64,000 nt of DNA, taken from NCBI RefSeq assembly GCF_003337735.1, contig NZ_QPJY01000002.1, positions 310,001 to 374,000 of the forward strand, in the 5' to 3' direction. Positions 42,409 to 61,254 of the stretch are shown one piece after another. The position numbers and the translations under genes were made by a program. The DNA is from Thioalbus denitrificans. Its GTDB lineage: Bacteria > Pseudomonadota > Gammaproteobacteria > DSM-26407. Every line of letters starts with the position of its first letter. Position 1 is the first letter of the stretch. Below the pieces are notes generated by a model, which saw only the letters and a list, made by a program, of their open reading frames with translations, had not been told where the DNA came from and made no database searches.

Positions 42409-43818
42409 TCAGCCGCCGGCGGCCCGTACCGCCGTGCGGCTGCGGCAGTGGCGTACGAATTCGAGGAAGCGGTGGGTCCAGTGGTTGGCGCCCACATCAC
42501 GCTGGTGGGCATAGCATGCCAGGAGATTCCTGTAGACCACCCCGTCATAACCGTTGCCGAGCCCGGTGCCGCGGAGCACCCGAAAGGCGAAACGACAGTC
42601 CGGATCGAGGTTCTCGATGCTGGAATGGTGGAATTCGTGGGCATGGAACCCGGCCAGCCGCCCAGCGGCATCCCGCAGCGGCCAGGGACCCTCGCCGGTC
42701 TCCTGCACGTGGATGTAACCACGGCCCACGGGGCGCTCGTGCATCCGGATGTCACCCGGCACCACGCCCACCATCTCGTGGCGCCGCCCCTGCCAGGTGA
42801 TGCTGCGGGCCAGGTACATGAGTCCGCCGCACTCGGCGTAGGCGGGCAGGCCCGCCTCGATGGCGGTGCGAATGGAACGGCGCAGCGACCGGTTCGCCTC
42901 CAGCTGTTCCGTGTGGGTCTCCGGGAACCCGCCGCCGATGAACAGGCCATCCACCGCGGGCAGTTCGCTGTCCCGCAGGGTATCGACGGGCACCAGCTCG
43001 GCTCCGCCCCGCTCCAGCGCCTCCAGGTCGCCGGGATAGTAGAAGCCGAAGGCGGGATCGCGGGCGATGGCGATGCGGAGATCGCGCACGGGAGAGACCG
43101 GTTCCGGCTGGAACAGCGCCGGGTCAGGCCCGGCGCTGCGTGCCGCGGCCAGTTCGATGAGGGCGTCGAGGTCGACCTGCGCCGCGATCACCCCGGCGGT
43201 GTAGTCGATCTTCTCCCGCGCGGTGCCGAGCTCGTTGCTGGGCACCAGGCCGAGATGCCGTTCGCTGATGCGCAGCTCCGGATTGCGGCGTACCGCTCCC
43301 AATACGGGGATGTCGGTGTAGTGGCTGATGACCGCGCGGAGCTTCTCCTCGTGGCGCTGGCCGGCCACCTGGTTGAGGATCACCCCGGCGATGTCCACCT
43401 CGCGGTCGAAGGCCTGGTAGCCGAGCAGGAGTGGGGCGATGCCCCGGGTCACGCCGGTGGCGTCCAGCACCAGGATCACGGGCGCCCCGATGAGCTTCGC
43501 CAGCGCCGCGTTGCTGTTGCCGCCCTCGAGATCCATGCCGTCGTAGAGGCTCATGTTCCCCTCCACGATGCCGATGTCCGTCTCCCGCAACCCGCAGGCG
43601 AAGGTGCGCAGGATTTCGTCGTTGTCCTGGGTCTGGAAGTCGAGGTTCAGGCAGGAGCGTCCCGCGGCCATCCCCAGCCACATGGGGTCGATGTAGTCGG
43701 GACCCTTCTTGTAGGGGCGTACGCGCAAACCGCGCGCGTGCAGTGCGGCGCACAACCCGAGGGTGATGGTGGTCTTGCCCGAGGACTTGTGGGCGGCGGA
43801 GATGAGAAGGTGGGACAT
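42409..43818 (-). CDS. dsrN: DsrN, siroheme amidase (cobyrinate a,c-diamide synthase family)
   Basis: A 469-aa CobB/CbiA-like glutamine amidotransferase that converts siroheme to siroamide for DsrAB. The N-terminal P-loop-like SAAHKSSGKTTITLG is followed by the KKGPDYIDP motif. The C-terminal class I GATase domain has the nucleophile Cys in AECGGLMYL and the IHVQETGEG region. The ATG at 43818 was chosen because the synthetase domain begins there; the upstream open frame has no similarity. A hairpin separates it from the previous gene. Confidence 0.92.
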   Translation of the reverse strand: MSHLLISAAHKSSGKTTITLGLCAALHARGLRVRPYKKGPDYIDPMWLGMAAGRSCLNLDFQTQDNDEILRTFACGLRETDIGIVEGNMSLYDGMDLEGGNSNAALAKLIGAPVILVLDATGVTRGIAPLLLGYQAFDREVDIAGVILNQVAGQRHEEKLRAVISHYTDIPVLGAVRRNPELRISERHLGLVPSNELGTAREKIDYTAGVIAAQVDLDALIELAAARSAGPDPALFQPEPVSPVRDLRIAIARDPAFGFYYPGDLEALERGGAELVPVDTLRDSELPAVDGLFIGGGFPETHTEQLEANRSLRRSIRTAIEAGLPAYAECGGLMYLARSITWQGRRHEMVGVVPGDIRMHERPVGRGYIHVQETGEGPWPLRDAAGRLAGFHAHEFHHSSIENLDPDCRFAFRVLRGTGLGNGYDGVVYRNLLACYAHQRDVGANHWTHRFLEFVRHCRSRTAVRAAGG

Positions 43819-51733: not shown

Positions 51734-51768
51734 TCTGCTTGCACCTCGAGTGCCACCGGGTAAGGGGA

Positions 51769-51790
51769 GGGGGGCGGTGTTACGCCCCCC
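51769..51790 (-). other. Intercistronic hairpin between dsrC and dsrM
   Basis: A perfect 8-bp stem GGGGGGCG/CGCCCCCC with a 6-nt loop begins about 20 nt after the dsrC stop. No U tract follows on the minus strand. It could protect the 3' end of a dsrC-containing message, since DsrC is needed in large amounts. Confidence 0.6.
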
Positions 51791-51809
51791 TTTCCAGGAC
51801 TGCTGCTGA

Positions 51810-54412: not shown

Positions 54413-54448
54413 GCTTACCTCCAAAATAGCGCTTATCTAGTTTTGGAA

Positions 54449-54471
54449 GGGGCGCCCACTCGGGGCGCCCC
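54449..54471 (-). other. Intercistronic hairpin between dsrA and dsrB
   Basis: A perfect 9-bp stem GGGGCGCCC/GGGCGCCCC with a 5-nt loop lies in the 84-bp dsrA-dsrB gap. No U tract follows on the minus strand. Confidence 0.6.
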
Positions 54472-54496
54472 CTGGCTTCGTCGATTAAGACCCGGG

Positions 54497-55765
54497 TCAG
54501 CCCGCGGCCGCCTCGGCCTTACGCTGGAACCACTTCTCGGCCTCCTCGTCCCAGCTGTCCGTACGGACGTAGGAGCTGGTGCGGGGGTTGGCGACCATGT
54601 TGGGATCCACCTCCAGGCCGATGCCCTCGAGGAAGTTCACCAGGCCGATACGCTCGATCATCTCGCCGGTACGCTCGTGCTCCAGGGCGTTCTCGGCGAA
54701 GAAATCGATGGTGTTCTCGGCGATCTCCTCCAGACGCGCGTAGTCCTCGTCGGTCTCGAGCTTCATGAAGGGAATGACCACGGTGCCCATCAGGTCACCG
54801 ATCTTCAGGGTGCGCTTGCCGCCCATCAGGATGGACACGCCCTTGTCGTCGCCCGGGGAGAGGGCCTTGGTCATCACGTTGATGCAGTGCATGCAGCGCA
54901 CGCAGTTGCGGTTGTCCACCGCCAGGGTGTCGTCGTCGTTGAGCGACAGGGCCTGGGTGGGGCAGCGGGTGATGACGTTGTCGATGACGTACTTGCGGCC
55001 CTTCGCGGCGACGAAGGCCTTGACCTCGTCCTGGTCGACCTTCATGTCGTCGCGCCAGGTGCCGATGGTGGCCATGTCGGCGCGCTGGATGGCGTTCATG
55101 CAGTCGTTGGGGCAGCCCGAGACCTTGAACTTGAACTTGTAGGGCAGGGCCGGACGGTGCATGTCGTCCAGGAAGCGGTTCACCAGCATGCGGTGAATGC
55201 GCTGCTCGTTGGCGCAGGAGTGCTCGCAGCGGGCGGCACCCACGCAGGACATGCCGGTACGCACGGCGGGACCGGCGCCGCCGAGGTCGAAGCCCATCTC
55301 GTTGAGCTCGTCGAAGGCGGGCTGGACGTTGTCGGTGGTGGCACCCTGGAACATGATGTCGCCGGACTGGCCGTGGAAGGCGATGAGGCCGGAACCGTAC
55401 TTCTCCCAGACGTCGGCCATCTTGCGCAGCACGTCGGTGGTGTAGTGCATGCCGGCCGGCGGCATGATGCGCAGGGTGTGATACTCGGCGGCGTTCGGGA
55501 ACAGCGGCTTGCCGGCTTCGTTCTTGAGCTCGGTGAAGCGGGGAATGATGCCGCCGCCGTAGCCCACGACGCCGACGGTGCCGCCCTTCCAGTAACCCTT
55601 CTTGGTCTGGTAGGAGGTTTCCAGCTGACCCAGAAGGTCATTGTTCATCTGGCGCACGCGCTCGTCGGGGTGCTCGTCGCGCATCTTCTTCAGGCCGGTC
55701 ACAAAGCTCGGCCACGGACCGCTCTCCAGCTGATCAAGATTAGGAGTCGGGTGTTTTTCTGCCAT
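54497..55765 (-). CDS. dsrA: Reverse dissimilatory sulfite reductase alpha subunit
   Basis: A 422-aa DsrA, first gene of the operon. Siroheme/[4Fe-4S] cysteines are in SCVGAARCEHSCAN and SGCPNDCMNAI. The inserted ferredoxin domain has RCPTQALSL and CVRCMHCINVM. The N-terminal MAEKHPTPNLDQLESGPWPSF matches oxidative-type DsrA. The ATG at 55765 follows GGGAGAA. The leader contains a perfect TCAACGATCGTTGA palindrome, and 440 bp separate it from the divergent dioxygenase gene. Confidence 0.97.
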   Translation of the reverse strand: MAEKHPTPNLDQLESGPWPSFVTGLKKMRDEHPDERVRQMNNDLLGQLETSYQTKKGYWKGGTVGVVGYGGGIIPRFTELKNEAGKPLFPNAAEYHTLRIMPPAGMHYTTDVLRKMADVWEKYGSGLIAFHGQSGDIMFQGATTDNVQPAFDELNEMGFDLGGAGPAVRTGMSCVGAARCEHSCANEQRIHRMLVNRFLDDMHRPALPYKFKFKVSGCPNDCMNAIQRADMATIGTWRDDMKVDQDEVKAFVAAKGRKYVIDNVITRCPTQALSLNDDDTLAVDNRNCVRCMHCINVMTKALSPGDDKGVSILMGGKRTLKIGDLMGTVVIPFMKLETDEDYARLEEIAENTIDFFAENALEHERTGEMIERIGLVNFLEGIGLEVDPNMVANPRTSSYVRTDSWDEEAEKWFQRKAEAAAG

Positions 55766-55783
55766 GGTAATGTTCTCCCTAGA

Positions 55784-55797
55784 TCAACGATCGTTGA
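55784..55797. promoter_or_regulatory. 14-bp palindrome in the dsrA leader
   Basis: TCAACGATCGTTGA is a perfect palindrome ending 18 nt before the dsrA start codon, next to its ribosome-binding site. It could be an operator or a hairpin that hides the leader. Palindromes of 14 bp arise a few times by chance in a window this size. Confidence 0.35.
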
Positions 55798-56005
55798 CTC
55801 TTTAGGCCAACCAGGTATTCCTGGCCGCAGGGCCTCTGGCTTTACTTACTCACTGTCAGCTCGAGTTAACTGAGTGCCGGTGCATGCAGAAGCTGGTTCG
55901 GATTCCCTCATCATCAGCTGCATTCGCATCGAAATCACGACAGCCATCTGAGGACCGGTCCGATGGAGTTTAGTAGTAGCTCCTAATAAACGAACACCGT
56001 CCAGA

Positions 56006-56044
56006 GGGGGTGCCACCCCCCACCCATCTATCCCGAATGGGATA
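56006..56044. promoter_or_regulatory. Two adjacent dyads in the dsrA upstream region
   Basis: GGGGGT-GCC-ACCCCC (56006-56020) and TATCCC-GAAT-GGGATA (56029-56044) are both perfect. They lie 240-280 bp before dsrA, in the 441-bp spacer shared with the divergent dioxygenase gene. They are candidate regulator sites for dsr. I could not place a convincing sigma-70 promoter for dsrA. Confidence 0.4.
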
Positions 56045-56137
56045 TATGCGGGCAGTTTTTTTCTGGTGCATTGCAGCAAGTCTTTACAGGGGCCGAGCAA
56101 GCAATTAAGTTGTTCATTACTTACTTATTTACTCGGG

Positions 56138-56143
56138 TATACT
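56138..56143 (+). promoter_or_regulatory. Putative -10 box of the dioxygenase gene
   Basis: TATACT lies about 64 bp before the start codon at 56207. It is preceded by an AT-rich run of TTAC/TTAT repeats (56117-56131). No clear -35 hexamer is seen at 16-18 bp. Confidence 0.35.
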
Positions 56144-56206
56144 ATCCCCTGGTAAAACCGGTCGGGGCCATTTGATACGCCTGCGGCAGGGAAAGATCAA
56201 CCTTGT

Positions 56207-57100
56207 ATGTCAAGACAACCCATGCCCGACAGTCCCTTCGATCCCGATAATGCGGCCGCATTCGCCCGCTGGCGCACGGCGAAACTCGCCGCCTGGCCGC
56301 CGTCGCCGGCGGCGCTCGTGACCGATCTGGCGCGCCCGGACCGGATCGAACCCGCCGAGCATGCCCGGATGCTGGAAGCGTGCCGCCGCGCCAATCTCTG
56401 CATCTACCGGGCCCCGCCGGGCACGGCCGGCCGGGACACGCTCCGCACGGTCGCCGGCGCCTTCGGCCTGGTACGCCGGGACGGCCACCTCTGCGCCGAC
56501 GCCGACGGCATCGCCACCCTCCAGGTGGCGCGGGATGCCCGCCGGCGCGACTACATTCCCTATACCGATCGCCCCATCAACTGGCACACCGACGGCTATT
56601 ACAACCCCCCGGAGCAACGTATCCGCAGCATGATGCTGCACTGCCAGGAGCCGGCCGCGGAGGGCGGGGAGAACGCCTGTATCGACCCGGAGATCATCTA
56701 CCTCCGGCTGCGGGACGAGAATCCGGACTACATCCGGGCACTCATGCGGCCGGCCTGCATGACCATCCCGGCCAACAGCGACGCGTCCGGTGTGCTGCGC
56801 CCGGCGCAGACCGGGCCGGTATTCTCGGTCGATGGGGTCAGCGGCGCCCTGCACATGCGCTACACCGCGCGCCGACGCAACATCGCCTGGGCCGATGATC
56901 CCCTGCTGCGCGAGGCGCTGGCGTTCCTGGAGACCCTGCTGGCAACCGATGCCCCCCACGCCATCCGTTTCCGTCTCGAGGCGGGGCAGGGCATCCTGTG
57001 CAACAACGTCCTGCACATGCGCACCGGCTTCAACGACGGGCCGGAGCAGCGGCGAACCCTCTACCGCGCGCGCTTCTACGAGCGCATCGCCGGTACCTGA
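56207..57100 (+). CDS. TauD/TfdA-family Fe(II)/2-oxoglutarate dioxygenase
   Basis: A 297-aa dioxygenase-fold protein. The metal-binding HxD is in INWHTDGYY, and the distal His in CNNVLHMRTGF is followed by an Arg-containing stretch (EQRRTLYRARFYER) that would bind 2-oxoglutarate. TauD-type enzymes often release sulfite from sulfonates, which would suit a sulfur-oxidising context, but the substrate is unknown. It is divergent from dsrA across a shared upstream region. Two ATGs lie close together (56207 and 56222). Confidence 0.8.
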   Translation: MSRQPMPDSPFDPDNAAAFARWRTAKLAAWPPSPAALVTDLARPDRIEPAEHARMLEACRRANLCIYRAPPGTAGRDTLRTVAGAFGLVRRDGHLCADADGIATLQVARDARRRDYIPYTDRPINWHTDGYYNPPEQRIRSMMLHCQEPAAEGGENACIDPEIIYLRLRDENPDYIRALMRPACMTIPANSDASGVLRPAQTGPVFSVDGVSGALHMRYTARRRNIAWADDPLLREALAFLETLLATDAPHAIRFRLEAGQGILCNNVLHMRTGFNDGPEQRRTLYRARFYERIAGT

Positions 57101-57162: not shown

Positions 57163-57267
57163 ATGACCAAAACCGATCCCAACACGTCCATTCCAGCGCA
57201 CAATATTGTGCCCCGGGCTGATGCGGAACGGGTCGCAAGCGACGAGGTGGCTTCATGCTCTATCTAA
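57163..57267 (+). CDS. Possible 34-aa leader ORF
   Basis: A short ORF begins after an AT-rich stretch (TATACATATATAAAAG) and overlaps the start of the next 59-aa gene by 13 bp. It has no clear ribosome-binding site and no similarity I recognise. A GCACAATATTGTGC palindrome (57198-57211) lies inside it. It may be a regulatory leader or simply non-coding. Confidence 0.2.
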   Translation: MTKTDPNTSIPAHNIVPRADAERVASDEVASCSI

Positions 57268-57434
57268 GCGAACTGCTGATTCAGCACCATGAACTGGAAA
57301 GCTTCGCCCAGCTCGAAGAGCTGGTCAGGAAGCGGGCCCGCGAAGGTGAACGGTTCTTCCGCATGGACGTGCGCCCCACCTTCAAGGACACGCCCGAGAA
57401 CTGGGAGGACCGCCTGGAGGCGGCGTTCACCTGA
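57255..57434 (+). CDS. 59-aa protein in the dsr-linked accessory operon
   Basis: The 59-aa product begins MLYLSELLIQHHELESFAQ and ends NWEDRLEAAFT. It is predicted to be mostly helical and acidic, with no membrane segment or Cys. GAGG lies 7 nt before the ATG and codon use is G/C-ending like the neighbours, which supports a real gene. I do not recognise the family. Its place before a helical-repeat protein, a Cas6-like protein and a DsrC paralogue suggests a sulfur-metabolism accessory role. Confidence 0.6.
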   Translation: MLYLSELLIQHHELESFAQLEELVRKRAREGERFFRMDVRPTFKDTPENWEDRLEAAFT

Positions 57435-57557
57435 CGGGAGGATCCCGGTCCGGGCGTTGACCGTCCCGATCCGGTGGTCCGGCGGAGCATCACGGCGCTC
57501 CGTTACCGAGAGGCTTTAAAGCATGCCGCATCAGTTGGTTACGCCCCGGAGTTGATG

Positions 57558-58265
57558 ATGAATCACGAAATAGAGAAGCATTTTCCCGGCCTGACGGGCC
57601 CGCTCGAAGTGGATACGGAGACCCGCGGGGCGCTGGAGCGCCAGCTGGCCGAGGTGGACGCCGAGCTGCTCGAGCTCCCGGAGGCGGGGGACCCGAGCCT
57701 GCGCGCCCACCGGCTGGTGGAGAAGGGCCGGGTGCTCAATCGCCTGGAGCGGGGTGCGGAGGCCTGGGACGTCGCCCGCGAAGCCTTCGACATGTTCGTC
57801 GGCCTGGAAAACTGGGAAGGCGCCGTCGAGGCCAGTGACGTACTGTTCGAGTCCGATCAGGAGGCGTCCCTGGAAGCCCTGGGCCAGGGCATCTGGCTGG
57901 CGGTCACCTATCCCATCGACCCCGAGATCAGCGCCATCATGCTCCGCCACCTGGTGGAGGAGTCCCCGCCCGGCGGTGATACCGCCGCCGTGGCGGCCGC
58001 AACCGCCTACTACCTGGCGTGCACCCGCGGCCAGGGCAAGGCGGGAGAGGGGCTGCGCGATTTCACCGCCGCGCAGATGGCGGAAGTGGCCAAGGCCCAC
58101 AGCATGGTGGACAGCCAGGCGGAATTCGGGTTCTGGGTCGATCGGCTGGGGCTGAACAACCCCGAACATTTTCTGCCCCACCTGGGGCAGGCCCTGGAGA
58201 AGCTGGTCCGGGGCAACTGGTGGTACGACCGCGACGCCCTGCGCGCGCGGCTGCCGGTGCAGTGA
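57558..58265 (+). CDS. 235-aa helical-repeat (TPR-like) protein
   Basis: A cytosolic, all-helical protein of unknown family. Residues ~40-105 look like tetratricopeptide-type helix pairs (LVEKGRVLNRLERGAEAWDV, then NWEGAVEASDVLFESD). There is one Cys, no signal and no membrane segment. The second of two adjacent ATGs (57558) is preferred because GGAG lies 6 nt upstream of it. The Cas6-like gene follows after 18 bp, so they are probably co-translated partners. Confidence 0.75.
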   Translation: MNHEIEKHFPGLTGPLEVDTETRGALERQLAEVDAELLELPEAGDPSLRAHRLVEKGRVLNRLERGAEAWDVAREAFDMFVGLENWEGAVEASDVLFESDQEASLEALGQGIWLAVTYPIDPEISAIMLRHLVEESPPGGDTAAVAAATAYYLACTRGQGKAGEGLRDFTAAQMAEVAKAHSMVDSQAEFGFWVDRLGLNNPEHFLPHLGQALEKLVRGNWWYDRDALRARLPVQ

Positions 58266-58283: not shown

Positions 58284-58970
58284 ATGTACTGGGAAGAGGA
58301 CGATGAGCGGGCCGCGGGCCCGGTGCCCGGCGATATCGTGGATCTGAGTTTCCGCATCGACTGCCGCGCCCTCCCGGTGGACCACGCCCACGCCCTCTAC
58401 ACCGAGGTCAGCCGGGTGCTGCCCTGGTTCGGGTCCGAGGCCGGTGCGGCGCTCCACACCATCCACGGCGCGGAATCGGGCAACGGCTGGTACCGGCCCG
58501 AAAGCGGTGCCGACGATGTCATCTACCTCTCCCGGCGGACCCGGTTCACCCTGCGGCTGCCCGCTCACCGGGTCGAGGCCGCCCGGGCGCTCACCGGGCA
58601 GACGCTCGAGGTCGGCGGCCATGCGCTGCGCATCGAGGAGGCCACGGTGCGGCCCCTGAGCGCCGGCACCACGCTCTTCGCCCGCTACGTGGTGGGGCCG
58701 GCCGGTGAGGCGGAGGACGAGTTCCTGCACCGGACCGTGGCGGAACTGCGTGCGCTGGGCGTGCAGGTGAAGAAGGTGATGTGCGGCCGCGGTCACGTCA
58801 TCCGCACCCCGGCGGGTGAGCTGCATACCCGCAGCCTGATGCTCGCCGACCTGAAACCGGCCGATTCCATCCGCCTGCAGCAGGCCGGAATCGGCCCCGC
58901 CCGGAAGCTGGGCTGTGGTGTGTTCATTCCCCACAAGGGTGTGAAGAAAGCGGACGAAACGCTCCTGTAA
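58284..58970 (+). CDS. Orphan Cas6/Cmx6-like protein
   Basis: A 228-aa protein resembling the Cas6/Cmx6 family of CRISPR RNA endonucleases (type I-MYXAN annotation). Support comes from the two-domain ferredoxin-like layout with LRLPAHRVEAARALTGQTL and VGGHALRIEEATVRPL. The C-terminal glycine-rich segment GIGPARKLGCGVFIPHKG is followed by basic residues, typical of the family G-rich loop. No CRISPR repeats or other cas genes are in the window. Its neighbours are a helical-repeat protein and a DsrC paralogue, so a housekeeping RNA-binding or RNA-processing role in sulfur metabolism is more likely than immunity. The function is unknown. Confidence 0.72.
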   Translation: MYWEEDDERAAGPVPGDIVDLSFRIDCRALPVDHAHALYTEVSRVLPWFGSEAGAALHTIHGAESGNGWYRPESGADDVIYLSRRTRFTLRLPAHRVEAARALTGQTLEVGGHALRIEEATVRPLSAGTTLFARYVVGPAGEAEDEFLHRTVAELRALGVQVKKVMCGRGHVIRTPAGELHTRSLMLADLKPADSIRLQQAGIGPARKLGCGVFIPHKGVKKADETLL

Positions 58971-59108: not shown

Positions 59109-59447
59109 ATGAACTACGAAGTGAACGGCAACACCATCGAGGCGGACGCCAACGGCTACCTGGTCAACGGCGAGGAGTGGACCGAGGAGGTGGCCGGCGC
59201 CATCGCCGCGGCCGAGGGTGTCGAGCTGAACGACAAGGCCTGGGAAATCATCAACTACATGCGCGACGAGTTCTACAACAACAACGGCAACCAGCCGAAC
59301 GAGCGCAACATGGTCAAGCACTTCAAGGATGTGTGGGGGCCGGAAACCAGCCAGAACAGCCTCTACCAGCTCTTCCCCCGCGGGCCGGCCAAGCAGTCCA
59401 GCAAGATCGGCGGCCTGCCGGAAACCCGGCGCAAGGGCGGCTACTGA
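59109..59447 (+). CDS. DsrC/TusE-family paralogue lacking both C-terminal cysteines (RspA type)
   Basis: A 112-aa DsrC-fold protein (NGYLVNGEEWTEEVAGAIAA, LYQLFPRGPAKQ). Its C-terminal arm reads KQSSKIGGLPETRRKGGY. Ser replaces CysB and CysA is absent, so it cannot form the DsrC trisulfide. Such proteins have been grouped as RspA, proposed regulatory sulfur-related proteins. A strong ribosome-binding site precedes the ATG and an intrinsic terminator follows. It closes the 57255-59447 gene run. Confidence 0.9.
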   Translation: MNYEVNGNTIEADANGYLVNGEEWTEEVAGAIAAAEGVELNDKAWEIINYMRDEFYNNNGNQPNERNMVKHFKDVWGPETSQNSLYQLFPRGPAKQSSKIGGLPETRRKGGY

Positions 59448-59526: not shown

Positions 59527-60579
59527 TCAGGCCAGCGCCAGGTCCGCCTCCGGCAGCTTCTGCAACTCGACGATCAGCTCCCGGGGCTCGGCCCGGAAGC
59601 GTTCCAGCAATGCCAGCGCCCGCTGCTCCCAGTGCCCCCGGGCACGCCGGGCGAGCGCCGCCAGCGCCTCGTCACCGCCGCTCGCGAGCCAGCTTTCGTA
59701 GGCCGGCATGAATGCCGGCAGCAGGGCCTGGCGCATGCCGGTCAGGTTCGCCGCATAGTAGTGCCAGAGGCTGCTCTCGCCCTCGGCGAGCAGCCGCGGC
59801 AGGGTGGCCAGCGAATCGGCCAGGTGGTCGCGCAGGGCGCGGGCCAGGACCTCGCCGCGGGTCGCCGCCACCGCCATCACCAGTTCCTCCCAGTCGGGCC
59901 CCAGCAGTTCGCCCGCGAGGGCCTCGCCCACCTCGTGCTCCTTCACCAGCGCCAGGACCGCGTCGGTCATCCGCTCCAGGGCCGCCTCGGCATCCTCCTC
60001 GAAGCCGTAATCCGCCAGGGCACGCTCCAGCGCACCCTCCTTGCGGCGCCAGCGCCAGGATTCGTAGGACTCCCAGATCATCTGCCGGATGGCGGCACGG
60101 CGAACGTAGATGGTCCGGCCCTGGGTCATCGCGGGGGGCGCGGAGAGATCGCGGGCGTACTCGTTGTCGGTGACGAGCACCCGGAACCCGCGGATCGTCT
60201 CCTCGCTCTGCAGGCAGCCGAGGAAGAACAGCGGCTTGGAGAAACGGCCGTAGACGCCGCTGTAGACCAGGCTTTCAGGCACGAGCAGCTGGTTGATGCT
60301 GTGGCTGTCGAAGGGATCCAGGTGGCGATCGTCGATGGCCACCGGGCTGAAGCCCTCGTTCTCGATCTCCTGCCACAGGCGCTCCCGCTCCTGCAGCCAC
60401 TCGCCGACTTCCTCGTGGGGCAGGCTGACCCCGGGGGCGAATCCCCGTTCCCAGCGGTAGTACTCGCGCATCTTCAACAGGAAGGTGCACATGGAGTAGT
60501 TGCCTGCATAGCGCGCATCGGAGACATGGCAGTTCCGCTGTACGGTCTCCACCAGCCGGTCGAAGTTCTGCATGGTCAT
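59527..60579 (-). CDS. 350-aa cytosolic protein, DsrS-like candidate
   Basis: A cytosolic, mostly helical protein starting MTMQNFDRLVETVQRNCHVS. The N-terminal part has conserved-looking segments (DARYAGNYSMCTFLLKMREY, then RWERGF; FGFEEDA-like helices follow). There are no membrane segments or cofactor motifs. Its size and location fit DsrS, a soluble protein of about 41 kDa encoded at the end of the Allochromatium dsr operon, but I cannot align them here. It is read leftward and ends near the rspA terminator. A divergent 181-aa gene starts 129 bp upstream. Confidence 0.6.
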   Translation of the reverse strand: MTMQNFDRLVETVQRNCHVSDARYAGNYSMCTFLLKMREYYRWERGFAPGVSLPHEEVGEWLQERERLWQEIENEGFSPVAIDDRHLDPFDSHSINQLLVPESLVYSGVYGRFSKPLFFLGCLQSEETIRGFRVLVTDNEYARDLSAPPAMTQGRTIYVRRAAIRQMIWESYESWRWRRKEGALERALADYGFEEDAEAALERMTDAVLALVKEHEVGEALAGELLGPDWEELVMAVAATRGEVLARALRDHLADSLATLPRLLAEGESSLWHYYAANLTGMRQALLPAFMPAYESWLASGGDEALAALARRARGHWEQRALALLERFRAEPRELIVELQKLPEADLALA

Positions 60580-60708: not shown

Positions 60709-61254
60709 GTGCGCATCAAGAGCAAGTGGCACAAGAGCGACCAGCCCAAGTCGCCGGAAGAGATCGCCAGCGTGCTGGCCTTCAACGGCTGGAAAATCGC
60801 CATGAACCGGCTGGAACACCTGGAATCGGAAAACTTCCCCATCACCGAGAACCGGCAGCGCTTCGGCATCGTGATGGAGTTCCTGGCCTACCAGCTGCAG
60901 GCCGCCGACCGGACCGCCTACGGCCTGATGGAGGAGGAGGATCGCCAGCGCCTCATCACCCGCATGGCGCTGCGCTTCGCCGAGATCGTCGACGAGAACA
61001 TCACCGATCTCGCCGGGCCCGGCGACTACAGGCGCCTGTTCATCGATCTCATAAACCAGCGCTCCGCCGACTACGCCGGTCTCACCTACGGCGAAGATGG
61101 CCCCGGCTACAGCTTCAACCGCTACCTGGCCGACCGGGTCGCCGAAGCGGTGGGCGAGGAGAGCAACAAGTGGATCCGCGAGCAGGTCGCTGAAATCGAG
61201 GCGCCCGAGGCCTTCAAGCTCATGCGCAAGTCCTTCAACGACCAGCTCGGCTGA
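60709..61254 (+). CDS. 181-aa conserved-looking hypothetical protein
   Basis: A soluble, largely alpha-helical acidic protein (MRIKSKWHKSDQPKSPEEIA start) with no Cys and no membrane segment. The GTG start follows GAGGGAA. I do not recognise a family. It is divergent from the DsrS-like gene and ends 27 bp before a strong bidirectional terminator, so it is a single-gene unit at the edge of the sulfur region. Confidence 0.7.
   Translation: MRIKSKWHKSDQPKSPEEIASVLAFNGWKIAMNRLEHLESENFPITENRQRFGIVMEFLAYQLQAADRTAYGLMEEEDRQRLITRMALRFAEIVDENITDLAGPGDYRRLFIDLINQRSADYAGLTYGEDGPGYSFNRYLADRVAEAVGEESNKWIREQVAEIEAPEAFKLMRKSFNDQLG

Follow-up and report, generated by a model that had tools for sequence, protein, structure and literature searches.

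The Cas6-like gene of this locus (Table 1) is linked to the dsr genes and not to CRISPR: across Gammaproteobacteria it tracks dsrA, which encodes the alpha subunit of the oxidative dissimilatory sulfite reductase (rDsr), and does not track cas1. That a Cas6-fold protein has been exapted is close to certain. We see slightly better than even chances that this is a Cas6-fold (RAMP) protein outside of CRISPR that serves, together with a DsrC paralogue, as a near-obligate accessory or regulator of rDsr in this class. In what follows, the window is the whole 64-kb stretch of DNA that was analysed.

Table 1. Features of the dsr locus and of the divergent cluster, in coordinates of the window.
Feature	Position	Strand	Basis or remark
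dsrC-dsrM gap with G+C-rich hairpin	51734..51809	-	candidate Cas6 target, disfavoured
dsrA-dsrB gap with G+C-rich hairpin	54425..54496	-	candidate Cas6 target, disfavoured
dsrA, alpha subunit of the oxidative dissimilatory sulfite reductase; divergent partner	54497..55765	-	TIGR02064 E 1e-175
Intergenic region from which dsrA and the TauD-like gene diverge	55766..56206	.	
TauD-like protein (2-oxoglutarate/Fe(II) dioxygenase family), which opens the divergent cluster	56207..57100	+	
Conserved 59-aa ORF of no known family	57255..57434	+	67 loci
TPR-like all-helical protein	57555..58265	+	start uncertain: GTG 57474 or ATG 57555/57558
Cas6-fold protein, dsr-linked clade (228 aa, ATG start)	58284..58970	+	PF09559/TIGR02807 and orthologues
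Cys-less DsrC paralogue (RspA-type)	59109..59447	+	PF04358 E 1.8e-32

Identification of the Cas6-like protein

The original prediction had described the gene as a member of the Cas6 family and proposed a search with Cas6/Cmx6 profiles, which gave matches above the curated cut-offs. The open reading frame scored 219 bits (E 5.4e-65, cut-off 26.7) with the Pfam profile PF09559 (Cas6), covering positions 1-190 of 191, and 126 bits with the NCBIfam profile TIGR02807 (cas6_cmx6), over the equivalog cut-off of 98.85. The Cas6 models of PADLOC also matched it. By sequence, the nearest solved structure is 8fcj, a Cas6 from a type I-B CRISPR-associated transposon. An AlphaFold model made from 82 orthologues (pLDDT 88.7) matched 8fcj_B with Z 24.6 (rmsd 2.2 Å, 198 residues aligned) and the remaining Cas6 structures with Z of about 8-17, e.g., 15.0 for the Cas6 of P. 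furiosus (3pkm). The fold match thus bears out the family assignment, and the model predicts the tandem RAMP/ferredoxin-like domains. The C-terminal glycine-rich loop, GIGPARKLGCG at residues 202-212, agrees with the Cas6 consensus G-hydrophobic-G-X5-G-hydrophobic-G with a basic residue (PMC3727216).

The genome (4.14 Mb, 99.7% complete) has a single PF09559 gene, and a search for PF10040, another Cas6 family, found none in it. Viral contigs searched with the alignment as query returned no relative, and a phage or AMG origin was dropped on this ground.

Co-occurrence with dsrA

We sampled 369 genomes evenly across the Gammaproteobacteria and counted those with PF09559 and those with dsrA (E below 1e-30); the sample takes in 86 Cas6-positive genera. 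The former was present in 117 genomes and the latter in 118: both occurred in 110, only Cas6 in seven, only dsrA in eight, and neither in 244 (odds ratio 479; p 1.5e-74, a value that overstates the evidence because the genomes are related). The two genes shared a contig in 83 genomes, at most 8 kb apart in 81 of these (median 2.8 kb). The link to the dsr operon proposed for this gene therefore holds far beyond the evidence on which it was first drawn.

The inspected exceptions look mostly like assembly gaps. In genomes with Cas6 only, the cluster genes (in most cases all of the TauD-59 aa-(TPR)-cas6-DsrC paralogue set) are found on short contigs or next to a contig end, and the contig of one of these genomes holds a fragment of dsrA. 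In the seven of the eight dsrA-only genomes that were read (G237 was left out), the contig stops at or near dsrA, where cas6 would lie. The gene does not follow sulfur oxidation in general: among soxB-positive genomes, it was found in 99 of the 104 with dsrA and in 6 of the 46 without it, and in these six, genes of the cluster, usually all of them, lie on short contigs or close to where a contig ends. In a phylum-wide sample, 5 of 398 genomes had PF09559, all of the same class and again adjoining dsr in the loci read; this draw says little on other classes.

The gene is also present where it is not beside dsr. Four Thiotrichaceae contigs (L009, L013, L014, L016) keep the 59-aa ORF with the cas6-like gene and show no dsr within the stretch, and G109 and G324 are examples of small genomes that encode it far from dsr. 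It can therefore act in trans.

CRISPR status of the gene and the genome

No CRISPR-like array was found in the window. The sole Rfam CRISPR-DR match there (43106-43139) was at chance level (23 bits for a cut-off of 39), and the only three matches of Rfam families near the gene were all below threshold. Elsewhere in the genome, the array search covered the region around cas1, where type I-F was the only CRISPR system found. This single cas1 gene lies on contig 14 inside a complete type I-F system (Cas1f, Cas2-3f, Csy1, Csy2, Csy3, and Cas6f/Csy4), beside an array of 28-nt repeats with 60-nt spacing. An array elsewhere that the gene might serve had been named as evidence against a role in dsr; such an array does exist, but the system to which it belongs has its own Cas6f, so that this array can do without the Cas6-like gene.

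In the 369 genomes, PF09559 and cas1 occurred together in 50, PF09559 alone in 67, cas1 alone in 86, and neither in 166 (odds ratio 1.44, p 0.13); many complete genomes have no cas1. PF01905 (Cas7/DevR), which adjoins the PF09559 Cas6 in several CRISPR loci, was absent from the 29 Cas6-like-positive genomes searched, including this one. The co-occurrence check suggested in the original prediction thus places PF09559 with dsrA and not with cas1, and its view of the gene as an orphan was right. With no array or cas gene near it, no association with cas1, and no PF01905 in those 29 genomes, we found no genomic link to an array or cas operon. The gene is not a CRISPR component.

Organisation of the cluster

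The gene starts 2519 bp from the start of dsrA (55765), in agreement with the predicted 2.5 kb, and it is indeed flanked by the helical protein and the Cys-less DsrC-family protein. The genes dsrBEFHCMKL come after dsrA, to about 47400. We read the neighbourhoods on 27 named contigs and in about 60 more loci. Most often the order runs dsrKMCHFEBA (divergent), TauD-like, 59-aa ORF, sometimes TPR-like, cas6-like, and Cys-less DsrC paralogue; Thioalkalivibrio and Thiohalobacter are among the named genomes that keep it. Four loci (L104-107) have dsrA, cas6-like, DsrC paralogue, one more gene, and then TauD. No single partner is universal, since in some genomes (L097, L118, L119) the cas6-like gene has no 59-aa ORF and no DsrC paralogue next to it.

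The Cys-less DsrC paralogue, a kind of protein for which we take RspA to be the name, ends here in GLPETRRKGGY (consensus GLPESRRKGGY, 68 loci), in place of the terminal cysteine region of DsrC. Such paralogues have been noted before (PMC5944118, PMC4287430). In Allochromatium, binding of DsrC to DNA upstream of the dsr genes has been reported (cited in PMC5944118).

The 59-aa ORF is part of the same cluster and was missed in the original prediction. It usually has the cas6-like gene, or the TPR-like neighbour of that gene, immediately downstream; its dN/dS is mostly under 0.2, and it matched no Pfam family. The TPR-like protein, of which 28 orthologues were aligned, is found in only part of the clusters. 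It matched no family in Pfam or NCBIfam, and the hits of its model in the PDB were generic TPR matches (Z up to 13.7) that are common for helical proteins. The TauD-like gene is divergent from dsrA in most loci. In a mirror-tree comparison, whose correlations were modest (0.46-0.63) and were left out of the evidence, distances followed those of DsrA with rho 0.52 for the cas6-like gene and 0.12 for the TauD-like gene. Two further genes recur near the cluster in many loci, encoding a DUF6866/Sfum_1244 family protein (59527-60579) and an uncharacterised 181-aa protein with no Pfam match (60709-61254).

Divergence from CRISPR-associated Cas6 and selection

We compared the dsr-linked proteins with eight PF09559 Cas6 from cyanobacterial plasmids, most of them adjoining cas3 and cas8 genes. 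In a quick, unrooted tree, the 82 dsr-linked sequences and the eight CRISPR Cas6 fell on separate sides of one branch (SH-aLRT 99), a clean split between this clade and the sampled CRISPR proteins. The dsr-linked set has a median pI of 5.96 and a net charge of -5, versus pI 9.3-10.2 and +6 to +14 in the CRISPR set; part of this difference may be lineage composition, because the CRISPR set consists of eight cyanobacterial plasmid proteins, although the Cas6f of this very genome is basic too (pI 9.15, versus 6.8 for the Cas6-like protein). Some AT-rich orthologues are basic (pI 9.4 in L118, 8.9 in L098). Sixteen alignment columns are basic in at least five CRISPR sequences, and nine of them are basic in less than 15% of the dsr-linked ones. 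The basic beta-hairpin tip is also shorter than in CRISPR Cas6. The protein thus appears to lack a basic RNA-binding surface like that of the CRISPR members.

The N-terminal domain of this family offers two candidates for a catalytic histidine, that of the 'LHE' motif and His34 (DH). The former is, by alignment, present in 5 of 7 CRISPR sequences and in none of the 83 dsr-linked ones; some active Cas6 enzymes are known without the usual histidine (PMC3727216). Other residues are retained: His34 in 81 of 83 dsr-linked sequences, R91 in all 83, the conserved R134, and a K or R at Arg207 of the glycine-rich loop in 73 of 83. This retention also fits residual RNA binding or cleavage. The clade has its own invariant residues, R85 and E144, and nearly invariant ones (G168, K164, K218, and W69), together with a conserved, clade-specific HxIHxAESGNGWxRP loop that is partly of low confidence in the AlphaFold model. 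Close pairs gave dN/dS values of 0.10-0.24, i.e., purifying selection, with 0.10-0.14 in the two pairs of reduced genomes among them. The gene is kept even in genomes of 1.0-1.1 Mb.

dsr hairpins as candidate RNA targets

The original prediction offered, as a hypothesis, a role in processing sulfur-gene mRNA at the hairpins between the dsr genes; cleavage of these hairpins found no support. The dsrC-dsrM gap has a strong hairpin in most loci, at the same position, with sequences unrelated between genomes; dsrA-dsrB hairpins are present in some loci and absent in others. In five reduced genomes (L084, L087, L089, L093, L095) the dsrC-dsrM gaps span 22-32 nt and the dsrA-dsrB gaps, where measured, 29-44 nt, and we found no real hairpin in them. 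Since these genomes keep the gene under constraint, the processing of hairpins in dsr mRNA cannot be its shared function. The loss of basic residues and of the 'LHE' histidine also speaks against such cleavage, and we rejected the dsr hairpins as Cas6 targets.

The divergent dsrA-TauD intergenic region is as short as about 160 bp. Single-sequence folding of this gap in the five reduced genomes showed no evident common fold, and a structured RNA there was dropped as a candidate. As a separate observation, the constant place and unrelated sequence of the dsrC-dsrM hairpin are what one would expect if it stabilises or attenuates the mRNA and thereby sets the dsrC level.

Proposed role and alternative explanations

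We propose that the protein would act in trans, with the DsrC paralogue and the 59-aa protein as its partners. Its part would be one of regulation or assembly, in which it would sense or modulate either the function of rDsr (DsrAB/DsrC) or how the divergent dsr operon is expressed. Its main means would be protein contacts of the HxIHxAESGNGWxRP loop and not the cutting of hairpin RNA; a limited, non-CRISPR interaction with RNA or nucleotides may persist at the glycine-rich loop. We infer the protein contacts from gene order and charge, as a matter of judgement. It is rather probable, in our view, that a domesticated Cas6, the Cys-less DsrC paralogue, and the 59-aa protein form a new kind of complex for the control of rDsr, with a fold once used in RNA processing now binding proteins (or a single non-CRISPR RNA).

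The main rival to protein contacts is an RNA-binding role, in which a sequence-specific regulator, similar to Cas6 but with another RNA as its target, would bind or cleave one conserved hairpin, in dsr mRNA, its own operon or a small RNA, and thereby control the processing or stability of dsr mRNA. The Cas6 fold, the glycine-rich loop with its basic residue, the retained His34, R91, and R134, the strong hairpin in most dsrC-dsrM gaps, and the precedent of active enzymes without the usual histidine all fit this. Yet the protein is acidic, with most of the basic columns lost and a shorter beta-hairpin tip, the hairpins share no sequence, and they are missing from the measured gaps of reduced genomes where the gene is still under selection. 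Nor does the short divergent region show an evident common fold, or any Rfam family lie near the gene. We regard this regulator as a tentative, less probable explanation.

Two other explanations fare worse. A strictly structural, non-regulatory accessory of a DsrAB-DsrC type complex, e.g., a maturation chaperone working with the TPR-like protein, would account for the presence of that partner in many clusters and for the near-universal co-occurrence with dsrA, also when the genes are not adjacent; but the TPR-like gene is absent from many clusters, and although rDsr has been studied in Allochromatium, we know of no listing of its parts that includes a Cas6-like protein. We think it unlikely. 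A CRISPR Cas6 that acts in trans on an array in another part of the genome, maturing its crRNA, is highly improbable: the score above the TIGR02807 equivalog cut-off and the existence of an array speak for it, but the array in question is part of a type I-F system that has a Cas6f of its own, and the clade is set apart from CRISPR Cas6, tied to dsr, lacks a statistical link to cas1 (many complete genomes having none), and comes without PF01905 in the 29 genomes searched.

Significance

About a third of the sampled gammaproteobacterial genomes carry a gene annotated as a CRISPR Cas6 that nevertheless follows sulfur oxidation. On the preferred reading, as an rDsr accessory or regulator, this would clearly be an example of the Cas6 fold put to use in core metabolism, outside of CRISPR, and a central energy pathway would gain a member that is near-universal and unstudied. 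Lone matches to PF09559 or TIGR02807 should not be counted as evidence of CRISPR. A full-text search of open-licence papers, which leaves most subscription journals outside, found none linking Cas6 with dsr; because of this restriction we do not claim priority outright.

Comparison with known systems

The nearest known proteins are the type I-MYXAN (I-B) Cas6/Cmx6 (PF09559/TIGR02807), including the Cas6 of the I-B CAST (8fcj). They share with the Cas6-like protein the fold, the glycine-rich loop, R91, and R134, as well as the DH histidine, with the exception of 8fcj, which has DN. In contrast to them, the Cas6-like gene has no array, cas3, cas7 or cas8 as neighbours, and its product is acidic, lacks the 'LHE' histidine, and has its own HxIHxAESGNGWxRP loop and invariant R85 and E144 (G168, K164, and K218 nearly so). 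The type I-F Cas6f/Csy4 of the same genome shares the Cas6 name and the general class of role, but is of a different family and is encoded on another contig, where it adjoins its array and csy1-3. On the sulfur side, the nearest known proteins are DsrC and its RspA-type Cys-less paralogues, and the downstream neighbour of the Cas6-like gene is of that kind.
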